A DNA stretch of 64,000 nt from Massilia sp. UMI-21 (GTDB lineage: Bacteria; Pseudomonadota; Gammaproteobacteria; Burkholderiales; Burkholderiaceae_D): NCBI GenBank assembly GCA_015277795.1, contig CP063848.1:1488001-1552000 (forward strand), in the 5' to 3' direction. A program made the position numbers and the translations under genes. Of this stretch, positions 26,438 through 36,119 are shown piece by piece. The notes under the pieces were generated by a model. That model ran no database searches. It saw only the letters and a list, made by a program, of their open reading frames with translations, and was not told where the DNA came from. The stretch's first letter is position 1; each line of letters starts with the position of its first letter.

Positions 26438-29344
26438 TCAGAAGGTATAGCGTGCCCCCAGGGTAGCGAAGCGGCCGATCGCGCCGTAGTAGTCGAGCGG
26501 GTTGTACGACACCGCGCCATAGGTCAGCGGATCGAGCGGCGCCTTCTTGTCGAACAGGTTCTGGATCGAACCGAAGACCTCCCAGCGCTGCTGCGGCTTC
26601 CAGCGGAACACCAGGTCGACGGTCGTGAACGAGGCCAGTTCGCAATCGGTCGGTGCGTCGTTACCGTTGGCGAAATGGGTGGCGCAGCCGTCCGGATCGT
26701 CCTTGAAGAGCGTGTTGTCGATGGGGCCGCGGTAGTTCGCGTTGAGCGACACGCGCCAGTTGCTGCGTTCCCAGGTGGCGCGCAGGTTGAGCTTGTGGTC
26801 GGGCGTGCCGACGCAGTTGGTCACGTCGCAGTTGCCGTGGGTGCCGGCGTAGTCGCGCGTGGTGCCGTCCTGCTCGGTGCGCTCCCACTTGTCGAGGTAG
26901 GTGTACTTGGCGTCGAACACCAGGTTGCCATAGCCGCTCGGCAGCGCGAAGCTCTGGCGCGCGTCGAGGTCGATGCCGCGCACCTTGGTGCTGGCCGAGT
27001 TGACGTAGCGTGCCAGCACCGCGGTGATGGCGCCTGGATCGCCCGGGATGGTCGGCACCGCGGTGCTCGGGTCGCGGGACACGCTGCCGGCGGCGATGGC
27101 GGCGTCGATCTGCTCCTGGTTGATCTCGTTCTTGCGCTTGATCTGCCAGAAGTCGAGCGAAACGCTGGTGCGCGGCAGCGGATCCCAGATCAGGCCGACG
27201 TTCCAGCTCTTCGAGCGTTCCGGGCTGAGTGCCTGGTTGGGCGAGGTAATGATGGCGATCGAGGCCGGGTTGCAGGCGGCCGCGACGCCAAGCGCGCAAC
27301 GCAGCGGGTCGTCGGCGGTGGAGAAGGCGGCCAGGCCGCCGACGCCGTTCTCCGCGGGGCTGGGCGCGCGGAAGCCGCGTGCCCAGGTCGCGCGCAGGGC
27401 GAAGTTGCGCGCCGGCGTCCACTTGACGCCGGCCTTCGGCGTCCAGGCATCGCCGACGTCGGTGAAGTGGTCGTAGCGCATCGCGCCGGTCAGCTCGACG
27501 CCCTGCCACACCGGCGCCAGCACTTCGCCGTACAGCGCGGTCACGTTGCGCTGGCCGTCGTAGGCGGAATAGCCGAGGCCGATGATGTTGCCGCGCTCGG
27601 TGCCGGAGGTCGGCTCCAGTTCGGAGGACTCGTGGCGGAACTCGGCGCCGACCGCCACCCCGAGCGGCCCGCCGGGCAGCTTGCCGAACTCGCGCGTGGC
27701 CTTGAAGTCGATCTGCGCGATCTCGGTATGGGCGTCGTTGCTGATCGTCGGCGACAGCGCGGCGTACACCGCCGGCGAATTCAGGCCGGCATTCTCGGCG
27801 ATCCGCCAGACGGTGCCGACCGGCAGGGCGCGGTAGGCCGGGTTGTTGGCGATCGCCGCGGCGATATTGGCCGGGCTCGGATCGAGCAGGGCGAAGGTGG
27901 CGTCGCGCGCCAGGTAGCCGGTGCGCTCGTTGTCCACCTTGCTGCGCGAATACAGCAGCGAGCTGTCCCACTCCCAGTCGTAGCTGGTGCCCTTGATGCC
28001 GACCAGGGCGCGCGTGAAATAGGACTCGATGTCCGAGCGGCGCGGCCCGACGTCGGCCGCCAGGTAGCGCAGGCGTGCGGCGGTGCCGAAGTAGGGGTTG
28101 TCGGGATGGGTGGCGCCCAGTTGGACCCCGGCATTGCTGACCGGGCCTCCGGGGTAGCCGACCGAGGAGCTGATCGCGGACGGCGTGGCCGAGGACTGGG
28201 TCAGGTTGCTGTACAGGTTGAGCTCGGCATACGCCTCGAGGCCCGGACGCACCATGGCGGTGCCGCGCCCGAACAGGGACAGGTATTCGGTCTGGGGCTG
28301 GATCTGGCTGTACTGGAAGGCCGCGTCGATCAGGCAGCCGCCGCCGGGGTCGCCCTGCGGATGGTTGGTGAAGTTGCCGCAGGCGGCGTTCGGGAACTGG
28401 CGGGTGAAGCCGGCGCCGGCCAGGTTGCCGCGGTTGTAGTAGTCGAAGGTGGTCGGGTTGCGCACGTTGCCGTTGATCGCATTGCCGGACGCGTTGTTGC
28501 CGGTGATGGCGCCGGTGCCGCCCAGTGCTTCCTGGGCCGAGAAGCCCCATGGACGCAGGTCGGCCTTGCCGATATAGTCGCGGTTGCCGCGCTCGCGGTT
28601 GAAGATTTCGTCGGTCCGCTTGTATTCGAAGGTCAGCAGCATGTTGTAGCGGTCGGTGTCGATGTCGCCCTTGCCCCAGGTGAGCGCGGCGTTGTAGTGC
28701 TGGCCGTCGCCCCCCTCGGCGGTGCCGACCATGGCGCGCGCCGTTGTGCCCTGGAAGTCGCGCCGCAGGATGATGTTGACGACGCCGGCGATCGCATCGG
28801 AGCCATAGATGGCCGAGGCGCCGTCTTTCAGGATCTCGACCCGCTCGACCGCGTCGGTGGGAATGACGTTGAGGTCGGCAAATACCTTTTGACCGTCGTC
28901 GGCCAGGCCATACGGCGCCATGCGGCGGCCGTTGAGCAGCACCAGGGTCGAGGCGGTGCCGAGGCCGCGCAGCGAGATCCCGGAGGCGCCGGCGGCGAAG
29001 CCGCTGCCGAAGTTGACCGGCACCGAGCCCTGATTGTCGACGGCGAGCGTCTGCAGCAGTTCGGCGACGCTGTTCTTGCCGGAGCGTTCGATGTCGGCGC
29101 GGTTCACCGTCAGCACCGAGGAGGCGGTCTCGGCCTCGGCGCGGCGGATGTTCGAACCGGTGATTTCGACGCGTGCGACGGGTTTTGGCGCAACCTCCTG
29201 TGCCTTCAGCAGGGAGGGCGCCGCCATCAGCGTGACGCCGACCGACATACAGCTGACCGACATACAGCTGACCGACATAAGGCCGACGGCACCGCCGCCG
29301 GCGAAGATGCGCCGCAGGGCGCGCGAGAGCAGGGTTTCAGTCAT
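26438..29344 (-). CDS. TonB-dependent receptor
   Basis: 968 residues (ATG at 29344, CTGGAG 9 bases upstream). The signal region is unusually long (about 49 residues) because of an internal repeat, MSVSCMSVSCMSV, just before the cleavage region. Plug motifs: RVEITGSNIRRAEAETASSV, SVAELLQTL, LVLLNGRRMAPYGL, AVERVEILKDGASAIYGSDA and VVNIILRR. The barrel ends FATLGARYTF. Same paralogous group as the receptors at 12379 and 32850. It ends facing tldD. Confidence 0.9.
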   Translation of the reverse strand: MTETLLSRALRRIFAGGGAVGLMSVSCMSVSCMSVGVTLMAAPSLLKAQEVAPKPVARVEITGSNIRRAEAETASSVLTVNRADIERSGKNSVAELLQTLAVDNQGSVPVNFGSGFAAGASGISLRGLGTASTLVLLNGRRMAPYGLADDGQKVFADLNVIPTDAVERVEILKDGASAIYGSDAIAGVVNIILRRDFQGTTARAMVGTAEGGDGQHYNAALTWGKGDIDTDRYNMLLTFEYKRTDEIFNRERGNRDYIGKADLRPWGFSAQEALGGTGAITGNNASGNAINGNVRNPTTFDYYNRGNLAGAGFTRQFPNAACGNFTNHPQGDPGGGCLIDAAFQYSQIQPQTEYLSLFGRGTAMVRPGLEAYAELNLYSNLTQSSATPSAISSSVGYPGGPVSNAGVQLGATHPDNPYFGTAARLRYLAADVGPRRSDIESYFTRALVGIKGTSYDWEWDSSLLYSRSKVDNERTGYLARDATFALLDPSPANIAAAIANNPAYRALPVGTVWRIAENAGLNSPAVYAALSPTISNDAHTEIAQIDFKATREFGKLPGGPLGVAVGAEFRHESSELEPTSGTERGNIIGLGYSAYDGQRNVTALYGEVLAPVWQGVELTGAMRYDHFTDVGDAWTPKAGVKWTPARNFALRATWARGFRAPSPAENGVGGLAAFSTADDPLRCALGVAAACNPASIAIITSPNQALSPERSKSWNVGLIWDPLPRTSVSLDFWQIKRKNEINQEQIDAAIAAGSVSRDPSTAVPTIPGDPGAITAVLARYVNSASTKVRGIDLDARQSFALPSGYGNLVFDAKYTYLDKWERTEQDGTTRDYAGTHGNCDVTNCVGTPDHKLNLRATWERSNWRVSLNANYRGPIDNTLFKDDPDGCATHFANGNDAPTDCELASFTTVDLVFRWKPQQRWEVFGSIQNLFDKKAPLDPLTYGAVSYNPLDYYGAIGRFATLGARYTF
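29240..29279. repeat. 15-bp tandem repeat inside receptor signal sequence
   Basis: GACCGACATACAGCT occurs twice and then as a 10-bp partial copy. On the coding (minus) strand this encodes MSVSC twice plus MSV. In-frame copy-number change would alter signal-peptide length by five residues per unit. Confidence 0.85.
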
Positions 29345-29634
29345 GTCCGGACTCCAGTGATTGGGTTTGTTCCCGCTGCCCGCGTTTTATTGACGACAAT
29401 CAAATGCTTAAAAGACTTTTCTTGCGAGAACGCAATAAGAACGCGGAGCAGTCGGGGGCTCGTAGCAACTTTTGCATTGCTGGATGAACATCGACTGATC
29501 CCGGTCAAGGTGTGTGAAAAGGTAGGGAACAGCTGTGGGGTTCCCGCAACCGCTTGCCAAATCCTGTCGTGGCAACCCGCGTGGCAAGCATCGCGGACCG
29601 TGGACGGCATGCATTGGCGGGGCCTGAAAAAGGC

Positions 29635-29664
29635 TTGCCAACTGTTACACAATGGCGTTATAGT
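29635..29664 (+). promoter_or_regulatory. Candidate aroG promoter
   Basis: TTGCCA (29635-29640), an 18-bp spacer, then TATAGT (29659-29664). Predicted start near 29671, about 30 bases before the leader peptide. The -35 hexamer is one of four TTGCCA/TGGCAA words between 29554 and 29640, which may form operator sites. Confidence 0.6.
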
Positions 29665-29701
29665 CAAGCGAACAAGGTCTCCAGATCATTCCGGACTTCT
29701 C

Positions 29702-29770
29702 ATGCGCCAGCACGTTTTCTTTACCTGCTATTTTTACTTTAGCCATTCCAGCCCCTTGGCGGTGGAGTAG
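29702..29770 (+). CDS. Phe/Tyr-rich leader peptide of the aroG attenuator
   Basis: A 22-codon frame, ATG at 29702 to TAG at 29768-29770. Residues 6-13 read FFTCYFYF: four Phe and two Tyr in eight codons, followed by SHSSPLAVE. This enrichment just before a terminator and upstream of DAHP synthase is the hallmark of ribosome-mediated attenuation, as in the pheA and pheST leaders of enterics. The Shine-Dalgarno is weak (GGA about 8 bases before the ATG). Ribosome stalling at starved Phe/Tyr codons would leave 29757-29763 free. Confidence 0.75.
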   Translation: MRQHVFFTCYFYFSHSSPLAVE

Positions 29771-29847
29771 CGGCAGGTTCACGCGAGATTCAGGAACAGT
29801 CCGACGCAAATCCAGACAAACCGCCAGCGATGGCGGTTTTTTCTTTT
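29757..29847 (+). promoter_or_regulatory. Transcription attenuator of aroG (terminator and antiterminator)
   Basis: The terminator is AAACCGCCA (29818-29826), GCGA loop, TGGCGGTTT (29831-29839), then TTTTTTCTTTT. The same TGGCGGT word occurs earlier at 29757-29763, so it can pair with ACCGCCA (29820-29826) and block the terminator. That early word overlaps the end of the leader peptide. A ribosome reaching the stop codon would cover it and allow termination, while a ribosome stalled at the Phe/Tyr codons would leave it free. Confidence 0.75.
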
Positions 29848-29879
29848 CCAGCACAGCCAAACCCAACACGGAGTACAGC

Positions 29880-30938
29880 ATGCCTCGCACCGACGATTTA
29901 CGCATTCGCGAAATGAAGGAACTGACGCCGCCCGCGCACCTGATCCGCGAGTTCCCGGTCACCCCGGCGGCGGAGCAGACCGCAGCCAGCGCGCGCGTGG
30001 CGCTGCACCGCATCCTGCACGGCCAGGACGATCGCGTGATGGTGGTGGTCGGCCCGTGCTCGATCCACGATCCGAAGGCCGCGCTCGAGTATGCGCACCG
30101 CCTGGCGCCGCTGCGCCAGCGTTTTGCCGGCGAGCTCGAGATCGTGATGCGCGTGTACTTCGAGAAACCGCGCACCACGGTCGGCTGGAAAGGCATGATC
30201 AACGACCCGTACATGGACAACAGCTTCCGGATCAACGACGGCCTGCGCATGGCGCGCGAGCTGCTGCGCGACATCAATGCGCTGGGCCTGCCGGCCGGCA
30301 CCGAATTCCTGGACGTGATCAGCCCGCAGTACATCGCCGACCTGATCAGCTGGGGCGCGATCGGCGCCAGGACCACCGAATCGCAGGTGCACCGCGAGCT
30401 GGCATCCGGACTATCCTGTCCGGTCGGCTTCAAGAACGGTACCGACGGCAACATCAAGATCGCCGCCGACGCGATCAAGGCGGCCTCGCAGCCGCACCAC
30501 TTCCTGTCGGTGACCAAGGGCGGGCATTCGGCGATCGTGTCGACCGCCGGCAACGAGGACTGCCACATCATCCTGCGCGGCGGCAAGACGCCGAACTACG
30601 ACGCGGCCAGCGTGGAAGAAGCCTGCCGCCAGCTGGCGGCCAACGGCCTGGCCGGGCGCCTGATGATCGACGCCTCGCACGCCAACAGCAGCAAGAATCC
30701 GCAGAACCAGGTGCCGGTGTGCGCCGACATCGCCGCCCAGATCGCGGCCGGCGACGACCGTATCGTCGGGGTGATGATCGAATCGCACCTGGTGGGCGGG
30801 AGGCAGGACCTGGTGCCGGGCAAGGAGCTGACCTACGGCCAGTCGGTGACGGACGGCTGCATCGACTGGGAGACCAGCATCGGCGTGCTGGAAGGGCTGG
30901 CGCAGGCGGTCAAGCAGAGGCGGGTGCGGCCGGAATAA
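29880..30938 (+). CDS. aroG: 3-deoxy-7-phosphoheptulonate (DAHP) synthase, class I (AroG/AroF type)
   Basis: 352 residues. Family motifs in order: VMVVVGPCSIHDPKAALEYA, RVYFEKPRTTVGWKG, INDPYMDNSFRINDGL, GTEFLDVISPQY, WGAIGARTTESQ, GFKNGTDG, IILRGGKTPNY and LMIDASHANSSKNP. GPCSIHD supplies the metal-ligand Cys, and the Lys and Arg ligands of PEP and E4P are in the KPR and RTTES segments. It condenses PEP with erythrose-4-phosphate, the first step of aromatic amino-acid synthesis. The leader peptide suggests regulation by Phe and Tyr; which amino acid inhibits the enzyme itself is not decided here. Confidence 0.95.
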   Translation: MPRTDDLRIREMKELTPPAHLIREFPVTPAAEQTAASARVALHRILHGQDDRVMVVVGPCSIHDPKAALEYAHRLAPLRQRFAGELEIVMRVYFEKPRTTVGWKGMINDPYMDNSFRINDGLRMARELLRDINALGLPAGTEFLDVISPQYIADLISWGAIGARTTESQVHRELASGLSCPVGFKNGTDGNIKIAADAIKAASQPHHFLSVTKGGHSAIVSTAGNEDCHIILRGGKTPNYDAASVEEACRQLAANGLAGRLMIDASHANSSKNPQNQVPVCADIAAQIAAGDDRIVGVMIESHLVGGRQDLVPGKELTYGQSVTDGCIDWETSIGVLEGLAQAVKQRRVRPE

Positions 30939-30944
30939 GGTCCG

Positions 30945-30976
30945 AAAAAAAACGGCGCACCGGGGTGCGCCGTTTT
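30945..30976. terminator. Bidirectional terminator downstream of aroG
   Basis: A8 (30945-30952) overlaps a 12-bp stem AAAACGGCGCAC (30949-30960) / GTGCGCCGTTTT (30965-30976) with loop CGGG. It terminates aroG and, read on the minus strand with its T8 tail, would also suit the convergent receptor at 32850, from which the group IIC intron now separates it. Confidence 0.85.
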
Positions 30977-31384
30977 CACGTGGTGCGCCCAGCATGGGCG
31001 CACTCCTGCGGGTGAAAGTCCTGCCGCGAGCTGACCACAGTGAGCGAAGTGAAGCGCAACTGCATGAGGGTAACCGAGTGTGGGAAGGAAGCGTGGATCG
31101 TAAATCATGAGCCGAGGAACACGAATCGCATAGAAGGCGTTGCCGATCAGGGCGAGCGGGCCATGAACCGCAAAGCTCTTGTGGTCAAGGAGAGGTGGCG
31201 TAGATGCGGCGGTTGTGTGATGAAGGAGTGCGGCCCTTACCTGGGGACGCCCCGCCTTGTGCCTGAAAGGGCGACGAAAAAAAAATCGGAGCGGGGTCTC
31301 AGCAGAGGTCATAGTAGTTGGAGGTAGCGCTGGGAAGGCTCGACTCCGCCGACGAAGGACCGAACGAGTAGGAGTGAATCCGAT

Positions 31385-32752
31385 ATGTCGATGCAGAAGG
31401 CACAGCGTCAGATGCCTGCTAACGCGGGGCGGGAAGCCGTAGGGCAAGGTGAAGCCATGCTCGATGCTTTCAGCGACGAAGCGTTCTGCCCGCGGCATGC
31501 AACCGGAGGCACGGGGTCAGCGTTGCTGCAAGCGGCGCTGACGACAGAGAACCTGCGGCGGGCGTTCAAGCGTGTGCGTGCCAACAAGGGAGCGGCTGGC
31601 GTGGATGGACTGGACATTGACCAGACCTCGCGTCTGCTGGCAACCGAGTGGCCTCACATACGAGAACAACTGTTGGCAGGGACGTACCGGCCCAGTCCGG
31701 TACGTCGGGTGACGATTCCGAAGCCCGACGGTGGCGAGCGCGAGCTTGGCATCCCGACGGTGACGGATCGGCTGATCCAGCAAGCACTATTACAGGTGCT
31801 GCAACCGATCCTTGATCCCACTTTCAGCGAGCATAGCTACGGCTTCCGACCGGGCAGGCGTGCGCAGGATGCGGTATTAGCCGCTCAGGCATACGTCCAG
31901 TCCGGGCTGAGAATCGTGGTGGACGTGGACCTGTCGAAGTTCTTCGACCGGGTCAACCATGACATCCTGATCGACCGCTTGAAGAAACGCATCGACGACG
32001 CTGGAGTGATCCGGCTGGTCCGTGCCTATCTGAACAGCGGCATCATGGAGCATGGTGTAGTACAGGAACGGAACGAAGGAACGCCGCAAGGCGGTCCATT
32101 GAGTCCGCTGCTTGCCAACGTCATGCTCGATGAAGTGGACAAGGAACTGGAACGGCGCGGCCATCGCTTTGCGCGCTACGCCGACGACGCGAACGTCTAT
32201 GTTCGTAGCGTGCGTGCGGGCCAGCGGGTGATGAGGCTGCTGCGGCGCTGCTATGCCAGACTGCACCTCGTGGTCAACGAAGGCAAGAGCGCCGTGGCCA
32301 GCGTCTTTGGCCGCAAGTTCCTCGGCTACAGCCTGTGGGTGGGGCGTGGGGGCGAAGTCAAACGCAAGGTGGCGGAAAAGCCGTTGCAAGCGTTTAAACA
32401 ACGCATCAGGGAGCTAACCCGCCGATCTGGTGGACGTAGCATGCCGGATGTGGTGCAGGGACTTCGTTCCTATATGCTGGGTTGGAAAGGGTACTTCCAG
32501 TTGGCGCAAACCCCAAAGGTATGGCGCGGACTCGATGAATGGTTGCGGCACAGGCTGCGGGCTATCCAGCTCAAGCACTGGAAGCGCGGAAGCACCATGT
32601 ATCGGGAGCTCCTTAAACTTGGGGCTTGGCCGTCGGCAGCGAGGCACGTAGCGGCGAACAGCCGCCGCTGGTGGCACAACAGCGATAGGTTACTCAAAAC
32701 AGTGATGACTATCGGCTATTTCGACCGACTCGGTGTACCTCGCCTGTCTTGA
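31385..32752 (+). CDS. ltrA: Group II intron reverse transcriptase/maturase (class C, no endonuclease domain)
   Basis: 455 residues, AGGAG 10 bases before the ATG. Reverse-transcriptase blocks are all present: AFKRVRANKGAAGVDGL (60-76), IPKPDGGERELGIPT (111-125), SYGFRPGR (151-158), DVDLSKFFDRV (180-190), GTPQGGPLSPLL (232-243), the catalytic YADD (265-268) and KFLGY (311-315). The thumb/maturase X region has LGWKGYFQ (365-372) and RHRLRAIQLKHWKRG. There is no C-terminal HNH endonuclease, as in class C introns that use single-stranded or fork DNA. No frameshift or stop, so it may be active in splicing and retrohoming. Confidence 0.95.
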   Translation: MSMQKAQRQMPANAGREAVGQGEAMLDAFSDEAFCPRHATGGTGSALLQAALTTENLRRAFKRVRANKGAAGVDGLDIDQTSRLLATEWPHIREQLLAGTYRPSPVRRVTIPKPDGGERELGIPTVTDRLIQQALLQVLQPILDPTFSEHSYGFRPGRRAQDAVLAAQAYVQSGLRIVVDVDLSKFFDRVNHDILIDRLKKRIDDAGVIRLVRAYLNSGIMEHGVVQERNEGTPQGGPLSPLLANVMLDEVDKELERRGHRFARYADDANVYVRSVRAGQRVMRLLRRCYARLHLVVNEGKSAVASVFGRKFLGYSLWVGRGGEVKRKVAEKPLQAFKQRIRELTRRSGGRSMPDVVQGLRSYMLGWKGYFQLAQTPKVWRGLDEWLRHRLRAIQLKHWKRGSTMYRELLKLGAWPSAARHVAANSRRWWHNSDRLLKTVMTIGYFDRLGVPRLS

Positions 32753-32849: not shown

Positions 32850-35780
<2,931 letters not shown>

Positions 35781-36119
35781 GTGAGCTTCCCGGATAGGCT
35801 CCGCAACCCATTTTTCTGACCTCGGCCACGGAGAGGTTTTGATGACATTGCCGTAGGTGTAAAACCGGCATCTTTTCCTGCGTGGCAATAAAAACATTGG
35901 CGTACGTACATTGTCAATTGATTCGTATGTACAAGTGAAAAAAACAACTATGTGATGAAAGTCTTTACAAGGAGAACATTTGGAGTTATGGCCGGGAAAT
36001 AAAAAGGAATGGGAGCGGGGCAGCATGGAAGGCTGCCAACCCGGCAGAATATGCGCTATCGTTACGCCCTTCGGCCCGCTGTCTTTCCCGGCTGCGGACA
36101 GCCGCTCAATAGGAGTTCC
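35781..36119. promoter_or_regulatory. Divergent control region, receptor versus ABC operon
   Basis: About 340 bases, AT-rich in the middle. On the minus strand TTGACA (35912-35917) lies inside a dyad GTACAT-N15-ATGTAC (35906-35932), with a loose -10 (TTTATT) 19 bases on. On the plus strand TTTACA (35964-35969), 17 bp, TATGGC is a weak candidate for the ABC operon. AGGAG at 36111-36115 is the RBS of the first permease. No coding sequence supported. Confidence 0.4.

Follow-up and report, generated by a model that had tools for sequence, protein, structure and literature searches.

A putative ribosome-mediated attenuator with a Phe/Tyr leader upstream of the DAHP synthase gene aroG in Massilia and its relatives

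How does Massilia sp. UMI-21 control aroG, the gene for the enzyme at the entry to the shikimate pathway? We analysed a window of 64,000 nucleotides (contig CP063848.1, positions 1,488,001 to 1,552,000; all positions below are those of the window unless a locus is named) in which aroG (29880..30938, plus strand) encodes an AroG-type DAHP synthase of 352 amino acids, which scores above the cut-off of the NCBIfam AroG equivalog (NF006723, 590.8 bits vs 568). The top PDB matches, DAHP synthases labelled phenylalanine-regulated or Phe-sensitive, correspond to E. coli AroG. Two further proteins of the genome match the same Pfam family: a second DAHP synthase below the AroG cut-off (locus L082) and, judged by eye from its sequence, a KdsA-like protein (L083). 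Downstream of aroG lies a group II intron (31064-32752), recognised by the sole Rfam match at gathering score in the window (RF02001, 31064-31234) and containing, by eye, a reverse transcriptase/maturase-like ORF (31385-32752); by eye there is also a hairpin at about 30945-30975, after aroG, which the scan did not class as a terminator. The aroG/intron block is flanked by two large minus-strand ORFs (26438-29344 and 32850-36026) whose translations look, by eye, like TonB-dependent receptors.

An earlier note on this DNA, made from the letters alone, had described promoter-like boxes upstream of aroG, a 22-codon frame with four Phe and two Tyr in codons 6-13, a word TGGCGGT overlapping the end of that frame, and a terminator whose 5' arm is the exact complement of the word and whose 3' arm repeats it. 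Direct reading of the sequence confirmed all of these parts, with coordinates correct to the base. The sigma-70-type promoter (29635..29664: TTGCCA 29635-29640, an 18-nt spacer, TATAGT 29659-29664) is the only promoter-like match of a pattern scan in 29345-29879 (mean in shuffles 0.3), and under loose patterns 49 of 55 Oxalobacteraceae-type loci have a TTG/-10-like pair in the 110 nt that precede the leader, and 34 of the 55 have T/CTATAGT. The leader ORF (29702..29770, ATG at 29702, stop codon 29768-29770), which has similar counterparts in relatives, reads MRQHVFFTCYFYFSHSSPLAVE; its control codons F6 F7 T8 C9 Y10 F11 Y12 F13 occupy 29717..29740, with Phe at codons 6, 7, 11 and 13 and Tyr at codons 10 and 12. 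The candidate antiterminator word TGGCGGT (29757..29763), supported by sequence, folding and conservation, spans leader codons 19-21, and its partner is ACCGCCA (29820-29826) in the 5' arm of the intrinsic terminator (29818..29842), which consists of AAACCGCCA-GCGA-TGGCGGTTT (29818-29839, nine pairs) followed by a T run to 29842; TGGCGGT recurs in the 3' arm (29831-29837). This was the only terminator-like match of the scan in 29345-29879, and a single match is not rare by chance, because shuffled sequences gave 0.6 on average. Most of the antiterminator word would be enclosed by a probable inner protector helix (TTCCA 29746..29750 with TGGAG 29763-29767), supported by alignment and by folding of 29740-29790, and the alignment also suggests a possible outer protector helix (ACCTGC 29723..29728 with GCAGGT 29773..29778). 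A Shine-Dalgarno-like GGAG precedes aroG at 29870..29873 (by eye). All of these features lie on the plus strand.

From the anatomy, conservation, RNA-level constraint and predicted folding established here, we infer that the element is a ribosome-mediated transcription attenuator of aroG, with a probability of roughly 0.92. Transcription would start just downstream of the promoter, and a ribosome would translate the leader behind the RNA polymerase. With ample charged tRNA-Phe and tRNA-Tyr, the ribosome would reach the stop codon and cover TGGCGGT, the terminator would form, and most transcripts would therefore end before aroG. If Phe or Tyr were scarce, the ribosome would wait at codons 11-13 and cover the 5' arm of the protector, leaving TGGCGGT free to capture ACCGCCA before the 3' arm of the terminator is made, so that the polymerase would read into aroG. 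In the absence of a ribosome, termination would be the default. Translation of the leader, stalling of the ribosome and derepression of aroG by starvation for Phe or Tyr are the putative steps of this scheme, and we are less sure that it is charged tRNA-Phe and tRNA-Tyr, in relatives perhaps also tRNA-Trp, that are sensed.

Predicted folding of the window's leader is consistent with this order of events. In the calculation, the ribosome hid the RNA as far as 13 nt beyond the first base of its A-site codon, with the 3' arm of the terminator not yet present; the predicted probability of the antiterminator was then 0.12-0.31 with codons 1-10 in the A site, 0.97-1.0 with codons 11-15 and 0 at later codons, and it was 0 without a ribosome. 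The aromatic codons at which a stall is predicted to antiterminate are thus codons 11-13 (29732-29740, plus strand), and footprints of 11 or 15 nt moved the edges of this gate by one codon. In both sequence and predicted folding, an antiterminator exposed by the stall excludes the terminator. The model needs a kinetic order, because equilibrium folds that included the whole terminator favoured the terminator in each of four cases (forced antiterminator -26.0 vs -29.3 kcal/mol).

A different control of aroG, mainly through a repressor such as TyrR or TrpR with the leader in a minor role, would follow the enteric arrangement described in PMC5343134, where both regulators are stated to be absent outside the gammaproteobacteria. 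We consider such control very improbable in this genome, judging from searches for these two repressors: a search with TIGR04381 found no TyrR-type helix-turn-helix (the E. coli control was positive) and the best match to TrpR reached 22.3 bits, below the cut-off of 27, and covered positions 39-77 of the 88 of the model. Control by a TyrR box close to aroG was also rejected: the box matched twice in the window (2.75 matches expected), both times more than 28 kb away from aroG.

One could also read the locus as a constitutive terminator, either ending a small RNA or damping aroG, next to an ORF that is accidental and untranslated. In line with this, the leader's own ribosome-binding signal is weak by eye, and the frame upstream of the leader stays open for about 1000 codons, with no in-frame stop to fix the start: a 1031-codon plus-strand frame (26675-29770), antisense to a TonB-receptor-like ORF, enters the leader ORF in frame. 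This long frame looks spurious, and an automatic annotator could absorb the leader ORF into it. We assigned the leader start from the ATG in relatives; all of the 107 leaders chosen there begin with ATG, but the choice itself preferred ATG. Against an accidental ORF stand the near-fixed spacing between the aromatic codons and the core GGCGG (see below) and the density of aromatic codons. Among ORFs of 8-36 codons, at least six F/Y/W per 10 codons occurred in 105 of 180 real aroG upstream regions (the window, 80 from close kin and 99 from the order) vs 3 of 900 shuffles, and at least five in 115/180 vs 30/900; for the window's own upstream region, dinucleotide shuffles reached six in 0/500 and five in 10/500 cases. 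The fold of the leader region was bettered by one of 200 shuffles (z -2.73). Upstream of the second DAHP synthase gene, 450 nt contained no aromatic-rich ORF (at best one F/Y/W per 10 codons); this locus is a negative control for the leader only, because the scan found three overlapping or close plus-strand terminator-like matches upstream of it (L082, 1201-1290; mean in shuffles 0.3). Taken with its points in favour, we give the accidental ORF very little credence and retain the translated attenuator.

The earlier note had made its reading depend on conservation of the leader frame and of the pairings in relatives, and conservation was found, the core being kept even in three reading frames (see below). 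In a close-kin set, which is biased to close kin because it holds the best 80 of at least 594 matches, all from named relatives, a rule-based scan found a leader ORF at 78/80 loci and an ORF with terminator at 77/80. Two Oxalobacteraceae aroG loci (L032 and L070) show no leader in the 330 nt upstream, the ORF counted for L070 being a false positive; loss of the leader or relocation of the gene may be suggested as alternatives. In Candidatus Burkholderia humilis (L047), the frame is shifted after FYFYF and too long for the rule, and the GGCGG core and the terminator are intact (1171-1500 of that locus), which may point to an attenuator that is decaying or being re-tuned in this symbiont. For the spread over the order, an AroG match was obtained in 233 of 300 genomes and 99 loci were taken, selected from those listed with coordinates so as to represent many families; of these, 36 had a leader ORF and 29 an ORF with terminator; the seven ORFs without terminator may be due to chance. 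At least one ORF was present in 11 of the 26 families sampled, and at least one ORF with terminator in nine, and at the two to six loci examined per family no leader was seen in the other 15. In the class, 204 of 274 genomes had an AroG match, and of 40 loci taken from other orders only two (L183 and L185) had a leader, both in one family; the terminator of L185 was recognised by eye, the scan having picked another hairpin. Over the 180 regions, 115 contained a leader ORF and 107 of these a terminator, the eight without one by the scan including the false ORF of L070. These counts comprise related taxa, which are not independent samples, and the close-kin and order-level sets overlap, some species being represented in both (e.g., by L032 and L086).

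A covariance model (R1), built from 44 Oxalobacteraceae-type sequences (alignment A1), gave one strong match in the Massilia genome, the element of the window (129 bits). Further copies of the element in this genome were rejected, the other matches having E-values of 0.66 or worse and at most 22.2 bits. Among 116 genomes of the family, some of which had supplied training sequences and for which the E-values are rough, R1 matched in 111 at E<=0.1 and in 100 at E<=5.4e-13, and the match was located directly upstream of aroG in all nine genomes in which both coordinates were compared. One genome without a match (G101) is that whose aroG upstream region (L086) has no leader.

The tail of the leader appears to be conserved as RNA. 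The antiterminator core GGCGG was found in 104 of the 107 leaders (absent from L106, L110 and L178). Counted from the first base of the last aromatic codon, it lies 8-23 nt downstream, and at 14, 17 or 20 nt in 92 of the 104. Relative to the leader it is in frame 2 in 97 cases, in frame 1 in 4 and in frame 0 in 3, and the seven leaders with a deviating frame (L004, L010, L033, L058, L107, L108 and L109) retain the core in their DNA. Since GGCGG is found in each of the three frames, the constraint is on the RNA, and selection does not act mainly on the peptide encoded by the tail. The idea of a functional peptide tail under conservation (SSPxAVE, PLADREG) was rejected on the same ground. Four leaders (L029, L039, L088 and L089, including Collimonas and Herbaspirillum) have one base fewer after GGCGGT than other leaders, so that their tail reads AVKSGKRS with an unchanged RNA core. 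Such cases separate constraint on the RNA from constraint on the peptide.

The complementarity between leader tail and terminator 5' arm had a mean score of 12.8 vs 8.2 for shuffled tails and was significant (p<0.05) in 73 of 107 leaders, the antiterminator pairing comprising only 6 bp in many relatives. In A1, 98.7% of the cells of the terminator are paired and two of its pairs are changed on both sides; the antiterminator core neither covaries nor fails, because it is invariant, and the structure as a whole is no better than shuffles (101/500). In a second alignment across families (A2, 39 sequences), the antiterminator is somewhat better than shuffles (79.2% vs 76.9% paired, 2/500; covariation score 3/500), and its number of pairs altered in both partners was matched in 295/500 shuffles. 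For the protector helices (44 sequences), 80.8% of the cells are paired vs 75.9% in shuffles (0/500) and 21 cells are changed on both sides vs 8.5 (0/500), statistics which count related rows repeatedly; for pairs altered in both partners the shuffle count was 151/500, and the structure slid by +1 had 27 such cells with only 49.6% paired. The inner protector helix (94.4% of cells paired) is likely to be real in the Oxalobacteraceae on this comparative evidence. The outer helix has only 67.8% of cells paired, and at one of its pairs 12 of the 44 Oxalobacteraceae sequences have G-C and U-A exchanged for one another. RNAalifold on A1 recovered the terminator and did not recover the protector. An antiterminator lengthened by a second helix (e.g., GGA with TCC in the window), which had looked attractive by eye in several families, was rejected (mean z 0.77; p<0.05 in 2/100).

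The gating calculation was extended to 100 of the 107 leaders, after dropping seven without a clean GGCGG or CCGCC (L106, L110, L139, L178, L012, L062 and L068). With a 13-nt footprint, stalls at the final three codons of the aromatic run gave the antiterminator a mean predicted probability of 0.98, 0.96 and 0.91, and stalls at the three codons that follow gave 0.45, 0.29 and 0.01; the run thus extends about as far as a stall is still of use. At the last aromatic codon the mean was 0.95 with an 11-nt and 0.45 with a 15-nt footprint, and without a ribosome it was 0.2 on average, 17 of the 100 leaders preferring the antiterminator (>0.5). The narrow gate at Phe11-Tyr12-Phe13 of the window is not general, because earlier stalls, too, are predicted to antiterminate in most relatives (mean 0.8-0.9).

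Which amino acids would then be sensed? The earlier note had spoken of a Phe/Tyr leader; both kinds of codon are indeed present, in 105 of 107 leaders together, and the description needs correction in that relatives often add Trp (49/107). DAHP synthase feeds all three aromatic amino acids, which makes a joint sensor sensible, and the leaders may respond to them together. Phe codons in the leaders are mostly TTT (TTT 399:TTC 131 in 115 ORFs) vs 56:251 in aroG bodies (47 loci), two sets that differ in taxa, the aroG bodies being nearly all from Oxalobacteraceae; TTT may be preferred either because it is decoded slowly or because it avoids structure. A narrower version, compatible with the attenuator mechanism, would have the translated leader answer to one amino acid only (e.g., Phe), with codons for Tyr and Trp serving as similar fillers by which the RNA stays U-rich and unstructured. 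Two papers describe in Corynebacterium glutamicum a leader peptide, aroR, with Phe-Tyr-Phe in front of the DAHP synthase gene aroF, at which stalling raises transcription (PMC11802643, PMC4046766), and the former reports that availability of Tyr has no effect there (PMC11802643); the gene studied here is, moreover, of the AroG type, with Phe-regulated or Phe-sensitive enzymes as its nearest PDB entries. Tyr is, however, the most frequent residue at the position three codons before the run ends (61/100) and is common at its last codon (41/100), positions at which stalls matter. We regard the response to a single amino acid as unlikely, with appreciably more in its favour than the repressor or the accidental ORF, and keep the sensing of both Phe and Tyr as our reading.

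The kind of attenuator is already known. In trpL, control codons are combined with a protector helix, an antiterminator and a terminator, and the aroG leader shares this logic; the trp leader, however, is specific for Trp and serves a terminal branch of the pathway, whereas the aroG leader serves the first step and carries its antiterminator word inside the coding tail. PMC11802643 names the enteric pheA, pheST and trp leaders as attenuators. The leaders of pheA and pheST (RF01859, Phe_leader) resemble the aroG leader in combining a Phe leader peptide with attenuation, but have other target genes, and leaders of the Massilia type mix Phe and Tyr codons, with Trp in the 49 noted above. The RF01859 model scored 14.9 bits in the window vs a cut-off of 55 and had no match in the whole genome (it was positive in E. 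coli); near 29635-29880, no T-box or other Rfam regulatory RNA matched at gathering score, and RNAI and other weak matches, all below gathering, were rejected. The earlier note had called attenuation of a DAHP synthase gene unusual: it does differ from the enteric control by TyrR/TrpR, but it is not unprecedented, given aroR-aroF of C. glutamicum (PMC11802643, PMC4046766). That system is a functional precedent, with an aromatic leader peptide on a DAHP synthase gene, although it belongs to another phylum, is insensitive to Tyr and is likened here by description only. Among the open-access papers searched we found no description of a betaproteobacterial aroG leader; subscription papers, for instance Vitreschak 2004 or that of Merino and Yanofsky from 2005, may list one among predictions. 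A web database of predicted attenuators (Merino), cited in PMC1173090, may also contain it. As far as searched, the aroG leader element is undescribed.

We propose tentatively, and with rather more doubt than conviction, that these leaders constitute an undescribed RNA family across the Burkholderiales. It would sense the charge of all aromatic tRNAs (Phe, Tyr and, in many species, also Trp within a single run) and act where the pathway has its first committed step. With members in 9 to 11 of the 26 families sampled and in a single family from a neighbouring order, it might be ancestral to these families and would replace the TyrR/TrpR repressors that the genome lacks. The element is ordinary in mechanism and useful for its taxonomic reach and its natural variants, about a hundred of which could serve for finding which codon positions matter in attenuation. 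Strains of harmless genera could plausibly be made to overproduce aromatics by removing the attenuator. To a lineage that, judging from this genome, is without the textbook TyrR regulon, the element would give a specific place of control at the enzyme with which the shikimate pathway begins.
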